The notes beneath the pieces were generated by a model. That model ran no database searches, had not been told where the DNA came from, and was given only the letters and a program-made list of their open reading frames with translations. Made by a program: the position numbers and the translations under genes. Below are positions 1-10,677 of a stretch of 23,817 nucleotides of DNA, one piece after another. Position 1 is the stretch's first letter. The number at the start of each line of letters is the position of its first letter. This stretch comes from a virus: the IMG/VR virus record IMGVR_UViG_3300013286_000056, positions 1 to 23,817 of that record. One strand, written 5' to 3'.

Positions 1-1288
1 AATTTGGTCTAATGTAAATAATGTACCTCGTGGAACTATTTATAATAGCGACATGAAAAAAATTGGTAATACTTTGCCAGATACTAACTCAGAAATTTAT
101 GCAGACTGGACTGGCACTAACTATACAAACACATATAGAACTTCAGAATCTTGGACATCTTATTGGTGGGCCATGACAAATATGAGTGATGCAAATGGCC
201 ATTCAGGAACAAGACTTCACCAAGGCCAATACACACACGTAGGAGTAAATCCAGATGGTCTTGCTCCAAACACTATGCCGTTCTTTGGAACAGTTATTTC
301 ACAAACTGGTATTCGTCAAAAGTTTTCTTTATGGCAACAAAACGCCAATATAGGAATTTATATGCGCGGTGGAAATTTTTATTTTGAGCAATTTTCATTA
401 AACAACACAGCATATGCTACATGGTATGGCGGAACTTCTTATGGAATGTCTGGCTATAATGATCGCACAAAAACTCTTGTTGTTCTTGAAGCAAAAGATG
501 GATCTAATAACTATCGCATGCACGTATGGAAGAATACTGGAACAAATAGATCATTAAATGATTCAAATTATCGCACAGGAACTCTTAAATTATTCCTTCA
601 AGAAGCTAAAGCGGGATTAACAACAGGCGGAGCAGCATCATATGCATATTATGATTTCCAATGGCTAGCAAATGGCTCTAACTCATATGCTGAATCACAA
701 TATAGAATGACTGTAGTTCCAGGAGACAATAATATTATTGGTTTGCGTCGTAGCGTTCCATCAAATGGCTCATATTACGCAACATATGTTTTGTCTTCAC
801 AAACACTCAATACAACTTTTAACTCAATGGGTAATACAACTTCATATGGATATGAACAAGGTTCAAGATACCATATGCAAAAATATCAAATTACATGGGA
901 CAACTACTGGGTAGCAGCATACAACCATTATTACTATTATGGTTCTGGAATTAATATTCACTTTATTGATACCCGCGATCCAAGAAATTATTACCTTGGA
1001 AATTATCAAACAAGCCAAGGTGGAGTACAAATTGTTCCTTTTAAGTCTAATAAATTTTTAATTAGTTTAGCACAGTCCAATTCTAATGATAACATAGGTA
1101 CAACAATATATGGTCCAATTGATTGCGAAGGTGCTAGATTAAATGGTAGAGTTACTTCTGGAACTATATCAAACGGTGGTACAATTAACATAACAGAAAA
1201 GGCGCATCAAGGCATGTTTGATAATTATTACACAAGTACTAATTATCCATTCTTAATGCCGATGCCACATTGGAGGGTAAACGTATAA
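1..1288 (+). CDS. Large fibre/appendage protein, copy 1 (5' end outside window)
   Basis: The reading frame is already open at position 2 and runs through the ATG at 53, so the gene starts upstream of the window; the ATG at 53 is probably internal. The product is rich in Tyr, Asn, Ser, Thr and Gly with no membrane segment, typical of beta-structured virion fibres. It is clearly paralogous to the protein at 2025-3563: both share YRTSE..TSYW, GYNDRT.TLVVLE.KDGSNNYR.HVW, a VPSN..YYAT-like block, ITWDN.W.A.YN.YYYY and DPRNYY in the same order, at roughly 40-50% identity by eye. The alignment continues upstream of position 53, which supports the truncated-start view. The stop overlaps the ATG of the next gene (TAATG). 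Inferred role: tail fibre or capsid appendage contacting the host. No catalytic motif or named family recognised. Confidence 0.75.
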   Translation, partial: IWSNVNNVPRGTIYNSDMKKIGNTLPDTNSEIYADWTGTNYTNTYRTSESWTSYWWAMTNMSDANGHSGTRLHQGQYTHVGVNPDGLAPNTMPFFGTVISQTGIRQKFSLWQQNANIGIYMRGGNFYFEQFSLNNTAYATWYGGTSYGMSGYNDRTKTLVVLEAKDGSNNYRMHVWKNTGTNRSLNDSNYRTGTLKLFLQEAKAGLTTGGAASYAYYDFQWLANGSNSYAESQYRMTVVPGDNNIIGLRRSVPSNGSYYATYVLSSQTLNTTFNSMGNTTSYGYEQGSRYHMQKYQITWDNYWVAAYNHYYYYGSGINIHFIDTRDPRNYYLGNYQTSQGGVQIVPFKSNKFLISLAQSNSNDNIGTTIYGPIDCEGARLNGRVTSGTISNGGTINITEKAHQGMFDNYYTSTNYPFLMPMPHWRVNV

Positions 1289-1575
1289 TGAAACTTAGTT
1301 TCGCATTTGAAGGGGCAGCACCCCAAATTGATCCACATGGTCAATATGAGTCTCCTATTGAGACAACACTTTTACACAGACTTACATTAAAAGATGGCAA
1401 GGTCGTAGATCTTTATAATGGAGTATCGGACGATGAAGTTCGTAAGATTGATCATGAGACAGCAACCAAAATTGCTAAAGAGCACGTTGATCATGAAGGA
1501 AACCCAGCATCAGTTGATTTAGCAGCTTTGTCAGTTTTAAACGAAGATGGGCATTATGTTCCAGGTGATAACTAA
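1288..1575 (+). CDS. Small acidic protein downstream of fibre 1, function unknown
   Basis: Encodes 95 residues from ATG 1288. I prefer this start to the in-frame TTG at 1270 because a GGAGGG Shine-Dalgarno at 1272-1277 lies 10 nt upstream of 1288 and the ATG overlaps the previous stop (TAATG). The protein is acidic and soluble, with several His and Asp residues and an ending HYVPGDN. It has no signal peptide, membrane segment or motif I recognise. It sits immediately after one fibre paralogue. Another small acidic protein of similar size follows the second paralogue (3568-3876), although the two sequences are not obviously related. A role as a fibre-associated protein or assembly chaperone is possible from position only. 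Confidence 0.75.
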   Translation: MKLSFAFEGAAPQIDPHGQYESPIETTLLHRLTLKDGKVVDLYNGVSDDEVRKIDHETATKIAKEHVDHEGNPASVDLAALSVLNEDGHYVPGDN

Positions 1576-2012
1576 TGCCAATTACACAAACCCCAGCAAA
1601 CGTAGTACCAGCACTCTGGACTTACACATATCTTCAAGCACCAATTAATGGTCAAGGATATGCTTATTTTAATATTCCTTCAGTTTACACAGCGCTAGGT
1701 ACAAAATCTTCAGGTACAGCAGTTTGTGACCTTTCAACATCAAATGTTTTTTCAGTAACAGCAGCAGGCAATATTGCTCTATCTTTTACTAATATTGCTG
1801 CCACAGCAAACACAGCACAATTTTGGCAAGTAGAAATTAAGGGTGGTGGTAGTTACACAATTACTTATCCAGCAGCAGTTGTTTTTGACGGCGGAGGAGC
1901 TTCAAATACTCCACCAGTTCTTTCACTTAACACAACAGTATTAAATTTTTACACAAGAAATAATGGAACAACAATCTACGGATCATACGCTTTTTCAGAT
2001 CTAAATATTTAG
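1575..2012 (+). CDS. Small beta-rich virion protein, fibre-domain-like
   Basis: 145 residues, TAATG overlap with the upstream stop, and an AGGTGAT ribosome site about 7 nt before the ATG. The sequence reads as a run of beta strands with the layout of a widespread phage fibre domain: DLSTSNVFSVTAAGNIALSF, then a strand pair with ITYPAAVVFDGG, then NTPPVLSL..TTVLNFYTRNNGTTIYGSYAF. That pattern (F.V...GN..LSF, .TYPA.V...G, .VL.FYT.....TIYG) is what I recall from C-terminal domains of many phage tail fibres; here it is free-standing. Likely a small structural or decoration component of the appendage; attribution rests on pattern memory rather than a search. Confidence 0.65.
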   Translation: MPITQTPANVVPALWTYTYLQAPINGQGYAYFNIPSVYTALGTKSSGTAVCDLSTSNVFSVTAAGNIALSFTNIAATANTAQFWQVEIKGGGSYTITYPAAVVFDGGGASNTPPVLSLNTTVLNFYTRNNGTTIYGSYAFSDLNI

Positions 2013-2024
2013 GAGATTAAATAA

Positions 2025-3563
2025 ATGGCAATTAGTACAAGTGTTACACAATTAGTTTTACCTGGTTTTGATACAACAGTTCAAAATAACATGAATGCAG
2101 CAATAAATACTAATACTGCAATACTTGCCATACTAGGCGCTTCAGCCATATCAACTGGTTTAAATACTTCTATTACATCAATAAATACATTAAATACATC
2201 AATCAACAATTTACCAAATTCTGAGCCTCTTCCAACTTGGTCTGTTTATTCAAATCAAGGAAACAACCCAGGATATACAACATATGACTCTGATTTTCAA
2301 CCAATTGGTGGAGGTATGTTTAATACAAGCACCGAGCTTGGACAATACTGGGCAGGCGAATTGTATACAAACTCATATAGAACTTCAGAAACTTTGACAT
2401 CATATTGGGTTGGTTCTACATCTCTTTCTCAACAACAAGACGGTCACTACTACTTAGAAATTCCAGGCGGGGAAAATGGTTCTTACGATAACGGATTTGC
2501 TAAAGCTCGTAACTATGTAATTAATACTTATCCATATTATGGAACAGTTGTTAACGCAATTGGCGTAAGAATGAAAAACTCAATTTATTTTAATAATCAA
2601 ACAGTTGGCTGGGCTTCAAGAGGAGCACAACAATTAACTGAGTACCTTGGAATTAATAGCTCAACTTATTCAACATGGACTGGCGGACAAGGATATGGCC
2701 AAATTGGTTATAATGACAGAACTCGTACACTTGTAGTCCTTGAATCAAAGGATGGATCAAATAACTATAGAATTCACGTATGGCGCAATACAAATGCAGG
2801 ACGCTCTCTTCAAGATAAAGATATGGAAACAGGCAGACTTCATTTATTTATGTCTGAAGCAAAAACTGCTGGAACTCCAGCATCATATGCAATTGGTCTT
2901 GGATATTTTTATAATGATTTTACATGGACATCATCAGGTTCAACATCATGGAATGAATCAAGATATCGTATGCGTTTGACAGTGGGAGATAATAACTACA
3001 TTGGTCTTTCAAGATATGTACCTTCAAATCAAACAAATTATGCTACATTTTTACCAACACCTACTACAACATCAGGAACCATAAGCGCAACACTTGCTTC
3101 AGTTGCTTGTACAACATCTTACGGTATGGATCAAGATGCAAATTACTACAGTATGCGTTCAAATATAACCTGGGATAATCAATGGATAGCATCTTATAAT
3201 CAATACTACTATTATTGTGCAGGAATGAATGTAATCTTTAGCAATACAGCAGATCCTCGTAACTATTACACAGGACAATATGCCACCTCATCAGGGCCAC
3301 TTCAGCTTGTTCCAGTAAGACAAGACAAGTTCCTTTGCAGACTTCAAAATCAAAATTCTGACGGTGCTACAGGTTGTGCAGTTTATATGGTTGATTTAGG
3401 TGGAGCTTTTTATAATGGTTTAAGACCAGATGGAAATACTATCTCAAATGGTCAAGATATTGGTATAGTTAACTACTCACAATCAGCATGGATGTTTGAT
3501 ACTGCATCAACTTCTACAAATTATCCAATTATTGTATCCCCAGACGCATGGTCGAACGGATAA
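2025..3563 (+). CDS. Large fibre/appendage protein, copy 2
   Basis: 512 residues with a strong ribosome site (AGGAGAT at about 2011-2017) and ATG at 2025. Residues 1-75 are low-complexity, with regularly spaced Ile/Leu and Asn/Thr-Ser, resembling a trimeric stalk or anchor. Residues 80-512 form the domain shared with the first gene of the window, including GYNDRTRTLVVLESKDGSNN, the HVWRN segment, VGDNNYIGL and TWDNQWIASYNQYYYY. The abundance of Tyr, Trp, Gly and Asn is typical of carbohydrate- or surface-binding fibres. No hydrolase signature seen. Two diverged copies in tandem suggest duplication followed by specialisation, perhaps for different receptors or different positions in a baseplate. 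Host-recognition function is inferred. Confidence 0.75.
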   Translation: MAISTSVTQLVLPGFDTTVQNNMNAAINTNTAILAILGASAISTGLNTSITSINTLNTSINNLPNSEPLPTWSVYSNQGNNPGYTTYDSDFQPIGGGMFNTSTELGQYWAGELYTNSYRTSETLTSYWVGSTSLSQQQDGHYYLEIPGGENGSYDNGFAKARNYVINTYPYYGTVVNAIGVRMKNSIYFNNQTVGWASRGAQQLTEYLGINSSTYSTWTGGQGYGQIGYNDRTRTLVVLESKDGSNNYRIHVWRNTNAGRSLQDKDMETGRLHLFMSEAKTAGTPASYAIGLGYFYNDFTWTSSGSTSWNESRYRMRLTVGDNNYIGLSRYVPSNQTNYATFLPTPTTTSGTISATLASVACTTSYGMDQDANYYSMRSNITWDNQWIASYNQYYYYCAGMNVIFSNTADPRNYYTGQYATSSGPLQLVPVRQDKFLCRLQNQNSDGATGCAVYMVDLGGAFYNGLRPDGNTISNGQDIGIVNYSQSAWMFDTASTSTNYPIIVSPDAWSNG

Positions 3564-3567
3564 TTAC

Positions 3568-3876
3568 ATGTACTACGCAACTATTAAAGATGCCAAAGTA
3601 GATAAATTCGGAAAACTTGAGGAAATCTTTCCCAATGTAGCATTTCCGCTTGCTGGGCCAAATGAAGATTGGGCAAAAGAGCAGGGGCTTGAAACGGTAA
3701 TTCAAGAACTTGAGCATGATGAAACAAAACAACATATTGTATATTGCGACCCTTATATTAAAGATGCAAAAGTATATTGTGTAGAAGTTGTTGATATGAC
3801 AAAAGAAGAAATTGCTTCATATAAATCTGCAATTAAAGAATTTAATAAATTAAAGGCGGAAAAAGATGCTGAGTAA
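3568..3876 (+). CDS. Small acidic protein downstream of fibre 2, function unknown
   Basis: I place the start at ATG 3568 (MYYATIKDAK), 5 nt after the fibre stop, giving 102 residues; the frame is open back to 3496, but that extension lies inside the fibre gene and reads as out-of-frame low-complexity sequence. The Shine-Dalgarno is weak (ACGGAT region). The protein is acidic and ends in a probable helix (MTKEEIASYKSAIKEFNKLK) with a charged Lys/Glu tail. Its size, acidity and position right after a fibre gene recall fibre-assembly chaperones, but no family motif is recognised. The last 11 bases overlap the next gene, implying translational coupling. Confidence 0.7.
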   Translation: MYYATIKDAKVDKFGKLEEIFPNVAFPLAGPNEDWAKEQGLETVIQELEHDETKQHIVYCDPYIKDAKVYCVEVVDMTKEEIASYKSAIKEFNKLKAEKDAE

Positions 3877-4585
3877 TCAAAGATCAATTTTTAAAAGAAA
3901 TCGTTATACTCAAATAGGTTTACAAACTTGGGTTGCTGCAGATGCAATTTCTACAATTGTTGTAAATGGATCTAACTTAGTTTCACAATGGAAAGATAGA
4001 ACTATTAATTTAAGACACTTTACTCAAGCAACAGATGCTAATAAGCCATTGTTTGTTTCAAATGCAATCAACTCTTTGCCAGCAATTAGATTTAACGGAA
4101 CAACATCATTTTTAAACTTTTCCGATCCAACTCTTTCATGGCTTAATTCATCTTCATTTACAATTTTTTATGTAGCAACTAAAACTGCAGGAGCTACAAA
4201 TCAATTTGTAATTGGTGGACAAGGTGCGGGAACAAGAAATAATTTAGGATTAGGATATCTTGCAACAAATACATATAAAGAAGTATTTGGATCAGATGAT
4301 ATTAATGCTGTAGTTCCAGTAAAACCAGCGGGACAACCAGAGCTATACGGCTTTACATATAGCAATGTGGATAACTCTCGTGTTATTAGAAGAAATGGCT
4401 CAATAGTGGGCTTAGGAGCCTCAAATGGATCACTTACAGGCATGTCTGGAGAAACACTTGGTCGCTATTTGACCACATACGGACAGTTTGACCTAGGAGA
4501 ACTTTTAATCTATAATCGTGTTCTAACAGCATATGAAATTTTACAAATTGAACGTGACTTATTATCAAAATGGTCAATTACTTAA
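3866..4585 (+). CDS. LamG/concanavalin-like jelly-roll virion protein
   Basis: 239 residues; ATG 3866 overlaps the previous stop and is preceded by GGCGGA. The sequence has the layout of a LamG-like (concanavalin A-type) jelly roll: LQTWVAADAIS near the N-terminus, VSQWKDRT, LPAIRFNGTTSFLNF, SFTIFYVATK, RRNGSIVG, and the characteristic end GELLIYNRVLTAYEILQIER, where the E.L.YNR.L...E...I motif closes the fold. Such domains bind glycans or proteins and are frequent in phage appendages. It follows the fibre genes and probably forms part of the same host-contact apparatus. No enzymatic residues seen. Confidence is good for the fold, lower for binding function. Confidence 0.75.
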   Translation: MLSNQRSIFKRNRYTQIGLQTWVAADAISTIVVNGSNLVSQWKDRTINLRHFTQATDANKPLFVSNAINSLPAIRFNGTTSFLNFSDPTLSWLNSSSFTIFYVATKTAGATNQFVIGGQGAGTRNNLGLGYLATNTYKEVFGSDDINAVVPVKPAGQPELYGFTYSNVDNSRVIRRNGSIVGLGASNGSLTGMSGETLGRYLTTYGQFDLGELLIYNRVLTAYEILQIERDLLSKWSIT

Positions 4586-4597
4586 TAGGGAGAAAAA

Positions 4598-4927
4598 ATG
4601 GCATATTCACCATACAGATTTGCTGGGCCAGTTTCAATTCCCTCTGTTCCAACTAATTTATTTACATTTACACAACCCTCTATTATAAAACAAATTATTT
4701 TAACAAATTTTACTGGTGGTTTACTTTCTTTTTCTATGTATTTAGTTCCAGCGGGAAGCCAAGTAGGAGATAATTCTAATAAACTTTATGGAGATTATTC
4801 CTTACCAGCAAACTCAACAGTTTCTTTTACACATTCACTAGTTGTCGGCACTGGAGAAAAAATATATGCTGTTGCAAATGTACCAAATTCTATAAATGTG
4901 ATTATTAATGGCGTAACGGCGGGATAA
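4598..4927 (+). CDS. Small beta-sandwich virion protein, function unknown
   Basis: 109 residues, preceded by AGGGAG about 7 nt before ATG 4598. The predicted strand-rich pattern (SIIKQIILTNFTGGLLSFS, then a strand ending YLVPAGS, then SLPANSTVSFTHSLVV and KIYAVANVPNSINVIINGV) resembles small immunoglobulin-like or galactose-binding-like adaptors made by many phages to decorate fibres or baseplates. No membrane segment, no cysteine. It is one base upstream of the mosaic PASTA/polyproline gene and is probably co-translated with it, so it may be a structural partner. The family is not recognised. Confidence 0.7.
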   Translation: MAYSPYRFAGPVSIPSVPTNLFTFTQPSIIKQIILTNFTGGLLSFSMYLVPAGSQVGDNSNKLYGDYSLPANSTVSFTHSLVVGTGEKIYAVANVPNSINVIINGVTAG

Positions 4928-4928
4928 A

Positions 4929-6629
4929 ATGGCAGAAGAGTCAAACTTATTGCCACCATCTCAAGGTAATTCAGGCGATTCACAAATAGTAATTACATCA
5001 CCAAATTATAGTAATACATTAAAAAACGCAGTACAAAATTTTAATCAATATCAATATGTTTTAGGCAATGGCACATCAACAAGAATTAAGTTTTCTTCTA
5101 TTTTAGATGAAGCAATAGTTTATTTAAAAATAGCAGCTTCATTAAATGAATCAATTCCATTTTTTAATACTACAAATATTGCAAATTCAAATGTTGGTAA
5201 AGTATTATCTTATTTAAATTTTACAGAATTTTCTATTATAAATAGCTTTAATGTTAGCTTAAATAAGCCAGCAAATATTGTAACAAATAAAGTTAATGCC
5301 GTTTCTGATGTTTATTTTCCAACAAATACTTATTTGCCAATATCACCAACTGGAACTTTTCAACAATCTTTAACACCAAATGCCGTTCAAACATCTACAT
5401 TATCATTAAAGGTATCATGGTCATCAATAGATAATGTAACTTCATATACTGTAAAAACCATAGATTCGGCGGGTATTGTACAAACTTTTGTTAATGCAAA
5501 TAATCCAACAGCAATAACTGTATCAACAACAGGACTTGTTACCGTAAATATTTATGGATATAATTTACAAAATCAAATAATTGCCTCATCACAAACGGTT
5601 TTAACGCTTTCTTCTGGAATAACATATACTGTTCCAGATTTAACAGGACTAAGTTATTCTGATGCAAGAACAATTTTAATAAATAGTGGAATATCTTTTA
5701 CTCAAAGTTCCACAAGTTCTTCAAGTCAATCATATTCAACTTATTCTGGTGGTTATGTAAATTCTCAAACACCCCTGCCTGGATCATATAATGTTGCTCA
5801 AATAGTAAATTTAAATTTAATAGTTTATACACCAGCAACAGCAACTGTTCCAAGTATTTTAGGACTTACTGTTTCTCAAGCACAAATAAATTTAACAACT
5901 GTTGGTTTATTTTTGGGAACTGGAACAGCAACAAATACAGCAACATCTTCTCAAGATCAAGTTGTTATATCTCAATCTATTACAGCTGGAGCATCGGTAA
6001 GCGGTGGAACATCAATTAACTATGGTTATTATCAATATGTTGCCACCCCACCTCCCCCTCCTCCACCACCCCCTGGCGGTGGCGGAACTCCTCCACCTCC
6101 ACCACCCCCTGGCGGTGGCGGAACTCCTCCACCTCCCCCACCACCACCCCCACCACCTGCTCCTGTACAACAATCATCTATTGGAAACTTAATAGCAAAC
6201 AGCACAACTTCTGCTACAGTAAGCGGAACATTCATTGAAACAATCACAAATGTTATAGTTAATGATTCAACTTCTATTAGTTATAGCCAAAGTAGTAATT
6301 CTGTTACATTTAATCTTTCAGGATTCACTGGTCAATGCGTTAATATACAGATTTATAACGGATCATCACCATTATTACCAGTTTGGGGTACTTGTGTTCC
6401 TGGAACACCCCCTCCACCCCCTCCTGGAACACCCCCACCCCCTCCTCCTCCTCCCCCTCCACCCCCTCCACCCCCACCTAGCAGTGGCGGTGGGTGCACA
6501 TTCAATGGCAATACTCATTTTGCTTCATGTTGCGCATGTTGCCCATGCGGATCACCAGGTTGCGGTGCTTCAGGTTGTTGCTGTGTTTATGATAATTGTA
6601 ATAAGTTTATTGGCTGCACAGGGACTTGA
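4929..6629 (+). CDS. Mosaic appendage protein: FN3-like, two PASTA repeats, polyproline, Cys-rich tail
   Basis: 566 residues from ATG 4929, directly after the previous stop. Modules in order: N-terminal Asn/Ser-rich region (1-150); FN3/Ig-like region around 156-230 (LSLKVSWSSIDNVTSYTVK); PASTA-like repeat 1 at about 231-300 (VPDLTGLSYSDARTILINSG... then SQTPLPGSYV-type ending); PASTA-like repeat 2 at about 303-370 (VPSILGLTVSQAQINLTTVG... SQSITAGASVSGG); polyproline/Gly tract (about 373-412); a small beta domain; a second polyproline tract (about 493-517); and a tail with 12 cysteines in the last 45 or so residues. PASTA domains are known peptidoglycan or muropeptide-binding modules of Gram-positive kinases and penicillin-binding proteins, so cell-wall binding is a plausible role. 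Long proline runs should need EF-P and could be hydroxylated by the nearby oxygenase (inference). Confidence 0.8.
   Translation: MAEESNLLPPSQGNSGDSQIVITSPNYSNTLKNAVQNFNQYQYVLGNGTSTRIKFSSILDEAIVYLKIAASLNESIPFFNTTNIANSNVGKVLSYLNFTEFSIINSFNVSLNKPANIVTNKVNAVSDVYFPTNTYLPISPTGTFQQSLTPNAVQTSTLSLKVSWSSIDNVTSYTVKTIDSAGIVQTFVNANNPTAITVSTTGLVTVNIYGYNLQNQIIASSQTVLTLSSGITYTVPDLTGLSYSDARTILINSGISFTQSSTSSSSQSYSTYSGGYVNSQTPLPGSYNVAQIVNLNLIVYTPATATVPSILGLTVSQAQINLTTVGLFLGTGTATNTATSSQDQVVISQSITAGASVSGGTSINYGYYQYVATPPPPPPPPPGGGGTPPPPPPPGGGGTPPPPPPPPPPPAPVQQSSIGNLIANSTTSATVSGTFIETITNVIVNDSTSISYSQSSNSVTFNLSGFTGQCVNIQIYNGSSPLLPVWGTCVPGTPPPPPPGTPPPPPPPPPPPPPPPPSSGGGCTFNGNTHFASCCACCPCGSPGCGASGCCCVYDNCNKFIGCTGT
6065..6136 (+). 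repeat. Perfect 36-bp tandem repeat, two copies, coding for Pro/Gly tract
   Basis: Copies at 6065-6100 and 6101-6136 are identical by direct reading and keep the frame (12 codons each, encoding a Pro-run, GGGG and Thr-Pro unit). The block is strikingly C/G-rich within an AT-rich gene. Such repeats can expand or contract by slippage and change the length of the proline linker. Confidence 0.9.
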
Positions 6630-6655
6630 TTTAAACTCACTAAGAATGCTATAAT
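6626..6655 (+). promoter_or_regulatory. Promoter for the oxygenase cassette
   Basis: TTGATT at 6626-6631, an 18-bp spacer and TATAAT at 6650-6655, preceded by TG at the extended -10 position (TGCTATAAT, 6647-6655). Predicted start is about 6662, just ahead of the GGAAGG ribosome site (6664-6669) of the gene at 6675. This is the best-formed promoter of the window because it has both boxes. Confidence 0.65.
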
Positions 6656-6674
6656 AAATGAAAGGAAGGTTTAA

Positions 6675-7073
6675 ATGTTATCTAAAGTAATTACTCTTAA
6701 GTTAGGCGACGACGAAGTTCATTGGATGGATATCAAAATAGATAGTGAAACAAAATTGCCATTAAGTGATTCTATAAAAAATTTTTATAACATGATAATT
6801 CCTGCTGTAAAAGTTATAGATATAACAGATTATTCAGAAATTCCTCAAATTGGAAGTTTTTGGAATGGAACTTTTTTTTCTGTAATTAATGAAAAAATAC
6901 CATTATTTAAAATAGAAAAAAATTGGTTAAATTTTCCAAAATTTGCTTTTATTGATAAAGATAATAAATTTACTGGTATGGCAAGTTATGAGCCCGCCGA
7001 AGGAAAACATGCAGAAAGAATAGCTATGTTAAGCTCGGATCCAGAAATAATTATAACTGAAAGGCTAGTTTAA
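6675..7073 (+). CDS. Unknown protein, first gene of the oxygenase cassette
   Basis: 132 residues, GGAAGG ribosome site 5 nt before ATG 6675, and a well-formed promoter just upstream. The protein is soluble and mixed alpha/beta with aromatic-rich stretches; its clearest feature is IPQIGSFWNGTFFSV around residues 55-70, followed by FPKFAFIDKDNKFTGMASY. I recall short FWNG-type segments in hypothetical proteins of aquatic phages but cannot name a family. The stop shares a base with the next start (TAATG), so it is translationally coupled to the zinc-ribbon-like gene. Its place as the leader of a cassette ending in a hydroxylase and DUF6065-like protein suggests a shared process, not a defined one. 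Confidence 0.7.
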   Translation: MLSKVITLKLGDDEVHWMDIKIDSETKLPLSDSIKNFYNMIIPAVKVIDITDYSEIPQIGSFWNGTFFSVINEKIPLFKIEKNWLNFPKFAFIDKDNKFTGMASYEPAEGKHAERIAMLSSDPEIIITERLV

Positions 7074-7318
7074 TGGAAGAAAAAAAAACACCGTGGCAAC
7101 TTTATAAAGAAAGTAAAGCTAAAGGGGAGTCTCAATTTTATGATATATTAAAGCCAAGTACCGAGTGGGCTTCAGAAGAAGAAACTTTAAAAAGATATAC
7201 TATTTGTAAAACATGTCCAGATTTTGTTAAAATTACAAAACAATGCAAAAATTGTGGATGTTTTATGCCAACAAAAACAAAATTGCAAAATACTAGTTGC
7301 CCTATAGGAAAATGGTAA
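7073..7318 (+). CDS. Small six-cysteine zinc-ribbon-like protein
   Basis: 81 residues. The N-terminal half is charged and helical (TPWQLYKESKAKGES); the C-terminal half carries C45-x2-C48-P, then C58-x2-C61-G-C63 and C76, with a conserved-looking ending CPIGKW. Four or more of these cysteines would form a zinc ribbon or knuckle. Small proteins with this CxxCP...CxxCGC...CP.GKW layout are familiar from phages of aquatic bacteria, but their function is not established to my knowledge. It overlaps the preceding gene by a base and is 1 nt from the oxygenase start, so it is probably made together with the hydroxylase. It could be a substrate-recruiting or nucleic-acid-binding accessory (inference). 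Confidence 0.8.
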   Translation: MEEKKTPWQLYKESKAKGESQFYDILKPSTEWASEEETLKRYTICKTCPDFVKITKQCKNCGCFMPTKTKLQNTSCPIGKW

Positions 7319-7319
7319 A

Positions 7320-7916
7320 ATGATTTCAAAAGTAGAAAACTTTATATCTGAAGAAGATCATAAATTTTTAATAGAATACATAAAATACCTAGAAGAAAAT
7401 GATAAATGGGACAAATCAGACCCACACCCATCTTGGCACGGAAGATATGTTCATGCAAACCTTCTTGCATTTAAAGGAATGTTTGGTACAGACAAAGATA
7501 TAGAGTGCCTGGAAATACTTATTGGAATAAGAAATAAAATTAGAGATCATATTATAAATATAAGAAATTTAAATGTATCTTTATATTCAGACACATTACA
7601 AATTGTAAGGTGGTTACCAGGAAACGAACAGCACCCACATGCTGATTCTGAAAACCCAGATGGCTCACCACACCCATATCCTTGGAGAGAACATGCTTCT
7701 ATTGTTTATTTAAACGATGAGTTTGATGGCGGAGTTACATATTTCCCTGAATTAAATGTAGATTCAAAACCAACTCCAAGGACACTAGTGACATTCCCTG
7801 GGACCAAAGAGTACATGCATGGTGTAACAAAAGTAGATAACGGAAGAAGATACACAATTGCATCATTTTGGACAACAGATCCTTTAAGAGGAATTTTAGT
7901 GGAAAATGAAGATTAA
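7320..7916 (+). CDS. 2-oxoglutarate/Fe(II) oxygenase, prolyl 4-hydroxylase-like
   Basis: 198 residues. The double-stranded beta-helix core is evident: metal ligands H107-x-D109 in EQHPHADSE, third ligand H167 in KEYMHGVTKV, and R177 in GRRYTIASFW as the probable 2-oxoglutarate-binding arginine. The segment ASIVYLNDEFDGGVTYFPEL is the typical strand pair of the P4H family, and LQIVRWLPG precedes the HxD as usual. Family members hydroxylate prolyl (or lysyl) residues using O2, Fe2+ and 2-oxoglutarate. All catalytic residues are present and the length is normal for a stand-alone catalytic domain. It sits between the zinc-ribbon-like and DUF6065-like genes; its last codons overlap the next start. 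A polyproline virion protein ends about 700 bp upstream and is the obvious candidate substrate, though this is untested. Confidence 0.88.
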   Translation: MISKVENFISEEDHKFLIEYIKYLEENDKWDKSDPHPSWHGRYVHANLLAFKGMFGTDKDIECLEILIGIRNKIRDHIINIRNLNVSLYSDTLQIVRWLPGNEQHPHADSENPDGSPHPYPWREHASIVYLNDEFDGGVTYFPELNVDSKPTPRTLVTFPGTKEYMHGVTKVDNGRRYTIASFWTTDPLRGILVENED

Positions 7917-8646
7917 TGATAAAAATAATTTAATACCAGATAAAACACTTTTAGTAATACCAAACAAATTTGCAAAAAAAGAAAAAATTTCTGATTTACT
8001 TGAGTCTTTATCAAAACATAAAAAAAGGGATTGGTTTACTGATCATTTTTATTATTGTTTGCCTTTGTTAATAGGAAACACATATGGGTTTATAATTAAA
8101 GCACAATTTAATTTTTCTGTATATTGGAACGGCGGTAATTCTGTCAACGACCTAGAAGTAAAAGTAGAAGATATACAAAAAGATAATTTGCAAACATATG
8201 TAACAAATTTTGGAAGCGGAATATTGACTGTTCAAAACTTTTTTCATTTTAGAACCCCTTTAGGAATAAATTTAATGACAATACAGCCACCAAATTTTTT
8301 AAAAGATGGGGTTACGCATATGATTGGTGTTGTAGAAACGGATAATTTAAGAAGAGATTTTACATTTAACCTTAAAATTACAAAGCCAAACGAATGGATT
8401 AGTTTTAAGGCGGGAGAGCCAATAGGTGCTTTTATGCCAATAGAAAGGTATTTTGCAGATCAATTTCATATTAAATATGCAGATGAGCTTTTTCCAGAAA
8501 GTTTGATAGACATAGAGCACGAGACGGGTAATGAATTTGGAAGACAAAGATCTGGAGAAGATCTTACCAAAAATCATCAAGCAGGAAGAAGATATTTTAA
8601 AGGTGAAGATGCTTGGGGAAACAAGTTTAAAGATCATCAAAAATAG
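7906..8646 (+). CDS. DUF6065-like protein
   Basis: 246 residues; ATG 7906 overlaps the oxygenase stop by 11 bases. The central part reads GFIIKAQFNFSVYWNGGNSV (Y73-W-N-G-G77), then FGSGILTVQNFFHFRTPLG, INLMTIQPPNF, GVVETDNLRRDFTFNLKI and FKAGEPIGAFMPIERYF. I recognise this as the pattern of the DUF6065 family, beta-rich proteins of unknown activity seen in cyanobacteria and phages, often near oxygenase genes. The C-terminal 50 residues are charged, with many His, Lys and Arg, and probably disordered. Function unknown; conserved pairing with the hydroxylase suggests it acts in the same modification or binds the modified product (inference). Confidence 0.65.
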   Translation: MKINDKNNLIPDKTLLVIPNKFAKKEKISDLLESLSKHKKRDWFTDHFYYCLPLLIGNTYGFIIKAQFNFSVYWNGGNSVNDLEVKVEDIQKDNLQTYVTNFGSGILTVQNFFHFRTPLGINLMTIQPPNFLKDGVTHMIGVVETDNLRRDFTFNLKITKPNEWISFKAGEPIGAFMPIERYFADQFHIKYADELFPESLIDIEHETGNEFGRQRSGEDLTKNHQAGRRYFKGEDAWGNKFKDHQK

Positions 8647-9090: not shown

Positions 9091-10677
9091 ATGGATCACA
9101 ATGTAACAGTAATAAATGATGATGATGAAAGCAACGAAATCCTTGTAAAATCCAATGTGGATTTTGGTATGGGTAATTCTTCAACAGAAGCATTTGAAGA
9201 TCCATTTTCTCAAAAATGGGGGGATATCCGAAAATCAGAAGGATTAAGCCCTAACTTACGTAGACATGCAGCAAGACTTGAAAAATCATTTACTGGTCAA
9301 CAAGATGCCAAATCTAAAAAGCTTGACCCACTTGATTTAACTGGATACTCATTATTTCAAATTGTTCAGCCTCCATATAACATGCTTTATTTATCACAAC
9401 TTTATGATGTGTCTCCATATCACCACTCAGCAGTTAATGCTAAAGTTGCAAACGTAATTGGTTTGGGATACAAATTTGAAGAAACATTTGCGGTGACACA
9501 AAAAGTTCAAGATGTTATTGATGACCCTAAAAAGCTAGACAAGCTAAGAACAAAAATTGAAAAAGCCAAGGTAGAGCTTAGAGCCTACTTAGAAGCATTA
9601 AATTCAGATGATTCATTTACTGAAAATATGAAAAAAGTTTACACAGATTTAGAGTCTACTGGAAACGCGTATTTAGAAGTTGGTCGTACCGCAACAGGCA
9701 AGATTGGTTATTTAGGTCATATTCCAGCAACAACAATGCGTATACGTCGTCACCGCGACGGCTTTGTGCAAGTTGTTTATAACCGCTACACATTCTTTAG
9801 AAACTTTGGGGATATAGAAACCCCAGATCAAATTGGAACAGATCCACAACCAAATGAAGTAATTCACTTTAAAAAGTTTACACCTTCAAACACATACTAT
9901 GGTGTTCCAGATATTCTTTCAGCAAAAAATGCAGTTGCTGGAGACGAATTTGCTCAAAGATTTAACTTGGATTACTTTGAAAACAAAGCTGTTCCACGTT
10001 ATATCATTACGGTAAAAGGAGCAAAGCTTACTGCTGACTCTGAGCGCAAGCTCCTTGAATTTTTTCAAACAGGATTACGTGGTCGTAATCATAGAACGCT
10101 TTATATTCCACTTCCCTCAGACGGAGAAAATAGCCGTGTAGAGTTTAAAATGGAACCAATTGAAGCGGGAATTCAAGATTCATCTTTTAAGAATTATGCA
10201 GTAGAAAATAGAGATCGTATCCTTATTGCACATAGAGTACCTATCTCTAAGATAGGCATGCCAGCAGATGTTTCTTTAGCAAATGCCAAAGATGCTGATA
10301 AAACCTTTAAAGAACAAGTATGTCGCCCTATGCAAGAAGAGCTTGAGTATAAACTTAATAAGATTATGGCTGAGTTTACAGATGCATTTGAGATCAGATT
10401 TGAAGAATTAGCCCTTACAGATGAAGAAACTCAATCAAGAATTGATTCATCGTACCTAGTAAATAAGGTAGTTCTTCCTAATGAAGTTCGTCAAAGAAAG
10501 GGTCTTGCACCAATTCAAGGCGGAGATATTCCCCTAGACCTTAATGCTCAAGATGTCGCTGAAATCAAAACAGATGCAAAAGGCACAAGAGCAAGAGATA
10601 AAGAGAGAACCTTAAATGCTCCAGATAAAATGGGGGATGCAAGAAATGCTCAAGGAGAAGGAAGAAAACAACAATAA
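9091..10677 (+). CDS. Portal protein (PBSX/HK97-type family)
   Basis: 528 residues; ribosome site GGAGCTAGG just upstream of ATG 9091. Family features in order: YNMLYLSQLYDVSPYHHSAV with VIGLGYKFEE (N-terminal wing), a charged helical insert around 150-185, GNAYLEVGRT and IPATTMRIRR (stem-side beta), YYGVPDILSA, then DYFENKAVPRYIITVKGAKL and TGLRGRNHRTLYIPLP, followed by DRILIAHRVPISKIGM and a C-terminal helix-rich tail. These are the hallmarks of PBSX-type portal proteins, the dodecameric ring through which DNA enters and leaves the capsid. It is followed by protease, scaffold and capsid genes as usual. The C-terminal 40 residues are charged and probably disordered. No terminase is seen upstream. 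Confidence 0.9.
   Translation: MDHNVTVINDDDESNEILVKSNVDFGMGNSSTEAFEDPFSQKWGDIRKSEGLSPNLRRHAARLEKSFTGQQDAKSKKLDPLDLTGYSLFQIVQPPYNMLYLSQLYDVSPYHHSAVNAKVANVIGLGYKFEETFAVTQKVQDVIDDPKKLDKLRTKIEKAKVELRAYLEALNSDDSFTENMKKVYTDLESTGNAYLEVGRTATGKIGYLGHIPATTMRIRRHRDGFVQVVYNRYTFFRNFGDIETPDQIGTDPQPNEVIHFKKFTPSNTYYGVPDILSAKNAVAGDEFAQRFNLDYFENKAVPRYIITVKGAKLTADSERKLLEFFQTGLRGRNHRTLYIPLPSDGENSRVEFKMEPIEAGIQDSSFKNYAVENRDRILIAHRVPISKIGMPADVSLANAKDADKTFKEQVCRPMQEELEYKLNKIMAEFTDAFEIRFEELALTDEETQSRIDSSYLVNKVVLPNEVRQRKGLAPIQGGDIPLDLNAQDVAEIKTDAKGTRARDKERTLNAPDKMGDARNAQGEGRKQQ

Follow-up and report, generated by a model that had tools for sequence, protein, structure and literature searches.

Does a bacteriophage hydroxylate the prolines of one of its own structural proteins? 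This question is raised by a 23.8-kb IMG/VR virus record (IMGVR_UViG_3300013286_000056), whose 23,817 nucleotides are referred to here as the window. An open reading frame (ORF) at 4929-6629 encodes a protein with long proline runs, and an ORF at 7320-7916 encodes a 2-oxoglutarate (2OG)-Fe(II) oxygenase. An earlier reading made from the sequence alone (the sequence-only reading) had described the enzyme as resembling prolyl 4-hydroxylase (P4H) and had proposed its neighbor as the substrate. On balance, we judge it probable that the phage encodes, in this cassette, a module for protein hydroxylation.

The protein encoded at 7320-7916 matched the Pfam family 2OG-FeII_Oxy_3 above cut-off (E = 1.5e-8). 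The catalytic residues named in the sequence-only reading (H107, D109, H167, and R177) were all present and were invariant in a 50-member alignment. In an AlphaFold2 (AF2) model with a pLDDT of 94, the HxD...H Fe(II) triad and the basic 2OG-binding residue that mark the superfamily were placed in a double-stranded beta-helix. Fold comparison of this model gave prolyl 3-hydroxylase 1 (P3H1, Z 19.8), PHD2 (17.4), Pseudomonas putida P4H (16.9), and PBCV-1 vCPH (16.7), and nearly all of the top 50 matches were prolyl hydroxylases. A single-sequence search of the PDB returned human P3H1 (6e-8), PBCV-1 P4H (1.7e-3), and Bacillus anthracis P4H (0.012), and a profile built from 50 sequences returned P3H1 (1.9e-17), B. 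anthracis P4H (2e-12), PiuC (8e-7), and PBCV-1 P4H (2e-6). Sequence profile and predicted fold thus support a grouping with the protein prolyl hydroxylases, an activity that is predicted for the phage enzyme.

The narrower assignment as P4H was not established, the nearest solved enzyme being P3H1. A lysine at the position binding the C5-carboxylate of 2OG is typical of collagen P4H, vCPH, and B. anthracis P4H, whereas the window enzyme has R177. The vCPH of the chlorovirus PBCV-1 and B. anthracis P4H are small prolyl hydroxylases, one viral and one bacterial, that share this fold and act on proline-containing peptides; to our knowledge, neither is paired with a Pro-repeat gene. Collagen P3H1 (leprecan) is the closest solved structure and shares the Arg as 2OG-binding residue and the H...R spacing, but the phage enzyme is a stand-alone protein of 198 amino acids without the partners CRTAP and PPIB, and its neighbor is not a collagen. 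By its similarity and its Arg type, the enzyme may be a 3-hydroxylase. The labels "DNA endonuclease (V)" and "ferrochelatase" that PHROG or GenBank attach to this protein and to those of loci L305 and L306 are probably misannotations; Pfam, profile, and fold all indicated 2OG oxygenases.

The candidate substrate consists of an N-terminal domain, a beta domain, two PASTA domains, the polyproline tracts, and a Cys-rich C terminus. The two long proline runs interrupted by Gly and Thr that had been reported are indeed two tracts, but they comprise five runs (9, 7, 11, 6, and 16 residues) split by GGGGT and GT. The runs are encoded by mixed CCA, CCT, and CCC codons and not by a single DNA repeat; across 500 shuffles of the window proteins the longest proline run was 4. 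The PASTA domains and the position of the gene between tail-type genes and the portal gene suggest a virion protein of the tail type. A tblastn search against cultured phages gave no match. In homologues of this PASTA protein the body is kept, the linker is swapped (polyproline, TP, SPVGV, VG, or GPPS), and the C terminus is either Cys-rich or Hint/intein-like. C termini of the latter kind, several ending in HN, were seen on Pro-repeat/PASTA tail-type proteins at L019:4065-6776, L029:1-2421, L051:5639-7846, L002:3-638, and L135:2643-3977; self-cleavage and cross-linking are candidate roles.

The link between the two genes was examined in three sets of loci. A Pro-rich ORF was defined by a stretch of 30 residues of which 30% or more are Pro; this threshold and the limits of four genes and 2.5 kb were chosen by us. 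In 31 of 43 testable loci fetched by oxygenase sequence alone, the first oxygenase was preceded by a Pro-rich ORF at a distance of at most four genes, compared with a mean of 13.6 and a maximum of 22 in 2000 shuffled gene orders. Nearly all Pro-rich ORFs of this set (32 of 36) sit in the four-gene upstream slots. The count was unchanged at a limit of 25% Pro and fell to 23/43 at 40%, and several of the misses resemble other viruses by their neighboring ORFs. IMG/VR loci fetched by portal alone carried both traits in 11 cases, only the oxygenase in 6, only the Pro-rich ORF in 2, and neither in 18; i.e. a Pro-rich ORF was found in 11/17 oxygenase loci versus 2/20 others (Fisher p = 0.0013, odds ratio 16.5). 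A weak PF13532-type 2OG gene is present in L005, one of the two Pro-rich-only exceptions, and this locus was scored as oxygenase-bearing on the portal tree. Over seven independent pairs on this tree, joint change of the two traits averaged 4.2 and opposite change 0.0. The paired signal vanished at a threshold of 20% Pro, and we therefore deduced that the link requires segments that are truly Pro-rich. In the third set, loci were fetched by Pro-repeat DNA alone, blind to oxygenases, and a same-strand oxygenase at most 2.5 kb downstream was counted. It was present for 35 of 45 FFPP-repeat genes and 17 of 38 VTPP-repeat genes. Co-occurrence in relatives was one of the tests by which the sequence-only reading had proposed to stand or fall, and its outcome favors hydroxylation of the neighbor.

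The 80 FFPP loci represent 74 clusters at 90% nucleotide identity, and the oxygenase linkage persists across divergent repeats (FFPP, FFAPPG, VTPP, IIATPPP, PPPV, GPPS, and polyproline). The pairing of oxygenase and Pro-repeat gene recurs in dozens of related phages. A scan of 11.3 million contigs from bacteria and archaea found the FFPP DNA pattern in 17, three of which are contigs of metagenome-assembled genomes (MAGs) with an oxygenase in the locus. These GTDB contigs (L545, L549, and L557, assigned to Verrucomicrobiales, Gammaproteobacteria, and Chitinophagaceae) are possibly phage contigs binned into MAGs. A 99.8-kb record, L118, encodes an HFPP-repeat ORF together with oxygenases, and its sole match to the portal scores very poorly (E = 1e-7), which suggests that the module is also found beyond this lineage.

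Arrays in relatives hold up to about ten oxygenases of two classes, an Arg-type resembling P3H1 and a Lys-type resembling P4H. The catalytic triad is retained in 404 of 410 array oxygenases, and the 2OG-binding residue of these is Arg in 232 and Lys in 172. With the profile of the main Lys clade, B. anthracis P4H was the best PDB match (4.5e-7) and P3H1 scored far lower (0.0044); with the Arg-type profile this order was reversed. Among the systems listed, those with polyproline, VTPP, IIATPPP, or TP repeats, including the window, have Arg-type enzymes only, FFPP-type systems mix both types, and a single GPPS locus (L174) has Lys-type enzymes only. Array size varies with the chemistry of the repeat: the median number of oxygenases within 6.5 kb was 6 for aromatic repeats versus 1-5 for others (p about 6e-6, uncorrected for relatedness), and most polyproline, VTPP, and TP repeats have 1-3. 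Collagen-like GXY-repeat ORFs also occur near some oxygenase arrays (L017:3-1293, L107:619, L120:13633, L134:6564, and L135:9874).

Some observations weigh against hydroxylation of the Pro-repeat protein by its neighbor. Four loci of the same phage group (L020, L023, L036, and L075) carry oxygenases and have no ORF with at least 30% Pro. The independent pairs on the portal tree are few, and single sign tests gave p values of 0.03-0.5 with a median of 0.125. PBCV-1 P4H is active in vitro, yet purified virions showed no hydroxyproline (PMC7019647). The cultured cyanophages S-SM1 and ACG-2014b have related oxygenases of the same superfamily (PHROG 61/2297), and neither has a Pro-rich neighbor; the link therefore belongs to this phage group and not to all phage 2OG oxygenases. 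Finally, none of eight plain polyP10 genes from elsewhere was followed on the same strand by an oxygenase within 2.5 kb. The proposed pairing of enzyme and polyproline thus survives as a strong co-occurrence with Pro-rich repeat proteins but not for plain polyproline, and we therefore replaced "polyproline" by "Pro-repeat protein." Within this phage group, the oxygenase is linked to proteins with PP or TP repeats, not to polyproline as such.

In the proposed module, the oxygenase would act on the upstream protein after its synthesis, before or in the course of assembly, and hydroxylate prolines of its Pro-repeat segments with Fe(II), 2OG, and O2. Hydroxylation may stiffen the polyproline-II segments of a fiber or mark them for glycosylation. 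Relatives would elaborate this scheme by combining FFPP-type repeats with mixed arrays of both oxygenase classes, and a transferase of family GT60 present in some of them may glycosylate hydroxyproline or Thr. Our hypothesis is accordingly broader than one P4H acting on polyproline, namely a repeat-matched oxygenase module. Its fullest form is tentative and, in our estimate, falls somewhat short of an even chance: freshwater phages of probably actinobacterial hosts would possess a hydroxyproline-rich protein system, in which Pro-repeat fibers and repeat-matched P3H-like and P4H-like oxygenases, sometimes with GT60, undergo a collagen- or extensin-like maturation and repeats and enzymes are swapped together.

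Other explanations start from the same loci. The oxygenases might modify the same neighbor at other residues (Phe, Tyr, Asn, or Thr within the repeats, or positions in the Cys-rich end), with the Pro tracts as bystanders. Proline alone gives no explanation for about six oxygenases with aromatic repeats versus 1-3 for most non-aromatic ones, and among 2OG enzymes with a similar fold, hydroxylation is known for several kinds of residue. However, the window tracts and the oxygenase-paired VTPP and TP repeats are devoid of Phe, and prolyl hydroxylases rank first for both enzyme classes, so that we regard this explanation as unlikely. It also appears improbable that the oxygenases serve auxiliary metabolism, acting on a small molecule or a host target, with Pro-repeat proteins nearby only because the hypervariable slot that precedes the portal gene takes up both as cargo. 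This slot is indeed highly variable among relatives, cyanophage 2OG oxygenases are thought to act in host nitrogen metabolism (PMC4164917), and the cyanophage members do without Pro-rich neighbors; but slot sharing alone predicts neither that, in phages sharing this slot, the presence of the oxygenase goes with Pro content nor that a search by Pro repeats alone recovers oxygenases.

The replacement of the linker by SPVGV or VG repeats in PASTA-protein homologues invites a further view, in which the Pro tracts stay unmodified and serve as linkers, flexible or rigid, for which (SPVGV)n or (VG)n can substitute, and the oxygenase has no bearing on them. The homologues with such linkers (L019, L029, and L051) have no adjacent oxygenase, whereas those with PP or TP linkers (window, L174, L008, L060, and L005) have a 2OG gene, which makes this view very unlikely.

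Glycan attachment, also envisaged in the sequence-only reading, is plausible for relatives, but the window record has no match to PF11397 (GT60). Of 48 related records, 18 had a match to this family. Among them is L002, whose oxygenase is the closest relative of the window enzyme (59% identical) and whose gene order is P20 protein with Hint domain, Zn-ribbon gene, oxygenase, GT60, and DUF6065. The family includes the Skp1 hydroxyproline GlcNAc (N-acetylglucosamine) transferase (PMC6939170) and a mucin-type enzyme of Trypanosoma cruzi (PMC8724618). The oxygenase-GT60 pair of L002 resembles PhyA-Gnt1 of the Skp1 pathway, in which a prolyl hydroxylase is followed by a GT60 GlcNAc transferase; that pathway differs in its eukaryotic cytosolic target, and GT60 also has Thr-specific enzymes. 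Because GT60 and oxygenase did not co-vary on the portal tree and GT60 also follows SPVGV/VG-linker proteins without an oxygenase, GT60 is an optional and not an obligate partner. A GT60 profile gave no sequence match in the PDB. Plant extensins, with Pro-rich tandem repeats that are hydroxylated and then glycosylated, offer an analogy only, as the plant enzymes and sugars differ.

The statement that no phage system of this type had been described agrees with our search of the open literature (subscription papers and preprints lay outside it), which held no paper on phage prolyl hydroxylation and no report of hydroxyproline in phage virions. In the Phold paper, phage 2OG enzymes (PHROG 61/2297, cyanophages) are reported to resemble human EGLN3 in fold, and no substrate is given (PMC12774648). 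Aquatic phages commonly carry 2OG-Fe(II) oxygenases that lack an explanation, and for one group of these a concrete candidate substrate, the neighboring Pro-repeat protein, is now at hand. If the proposal is true, the hydroxyproline chemistry of collagen and plant cell walls extends to bacteriophage structural proteins, and these phages offer a natural collection of hydroxylases for proline (perhaps also for aromatic residues) that come matched to their repeat peptides.

Features of the cassette and its right boundary in the window
Feature	Coordinates	Strand	Remarks
Pro-repeat protein, 566 aa	4929..6629	+	PASTA 6.8e-15; Pro runs; homologues with other linkers and C-terminal domains
Pro tract 1, P9-GGGGT-P7-GGGGT-P11	6048..6158	+	residues 374-410
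Pro tract 2, P6-GT-P16	6408..6479	+	residues 494-517
Promoter-like TTGATT-18-TATAAT	6626..6655	+	between stop of the Pro-repeat gene and enzyme genes; weak
132-aa protein, no function assigned	6675..7073	+	relatives often have ORFs of 120-148 aa in the same slot
81-aa Zn-ribbon-like protein (DUF6171-like, phrog_13558)	7073..7318	+	directly precedes oxygenase or GT60 gene in many relatives
2OG-Fe(II) oxygenase, Arg-type, P3H1-like, 198 aa	7320..7916	+	proposed prolyl hydroxylase
DUF6065 protein	7906..8646	+	11-nt overlap with oxygenase gene; recurrent partner of oxygenases
Portal protein	9091..10677	+	PF04860 5.1e-33; conserved right boundary of variable cassette

The ORFs of the record are co-directional. 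Tail-type genes (53-4927) precede the Pro-repeat gene, and a small gene precedes the portal gene, which is followed by genes for protease, capsid, tail proteins, and a tape measure protein of 1666 residues. The distance between the Pro-repeat and oxygenase ORFs, given earlier as about 700 bp, is 691 bp and accommodates two small genes; between 6675 and 8646 neighboring genes touch or share a few bases in an operon-like arrangement. Promoter-like sites near 6626-6655 were no commoner than in shuffled sequence, as counted for the region. IMG/VR contains 423 relatives of the portal protein, which shares 54% identity with its counterparts in Streptomyces phages, e.g. Blueeyedbeauty and Annadreamy; because of this identity, the freshwater phage group to which the window belongs probably has actinobacterial hosts. 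The record of Annadreamy, a cultured relative, contained no PF13640 oxygenase, and the stretch examined had no Pro-rich ORF.

Among the accessory proteins, the Zn-ribbon protein is perhaps a chaperone or targeting factor. The DUF6065 protein has a predicted dUTPase-like beta fold (Z about 10), which does not support a role as second oxygenase. Upstream of the cassette, the proteins encoded at 53-1288 (411 aa) and 2025-3563 (512 aa), which had no family match, looked like paralogues by eye.

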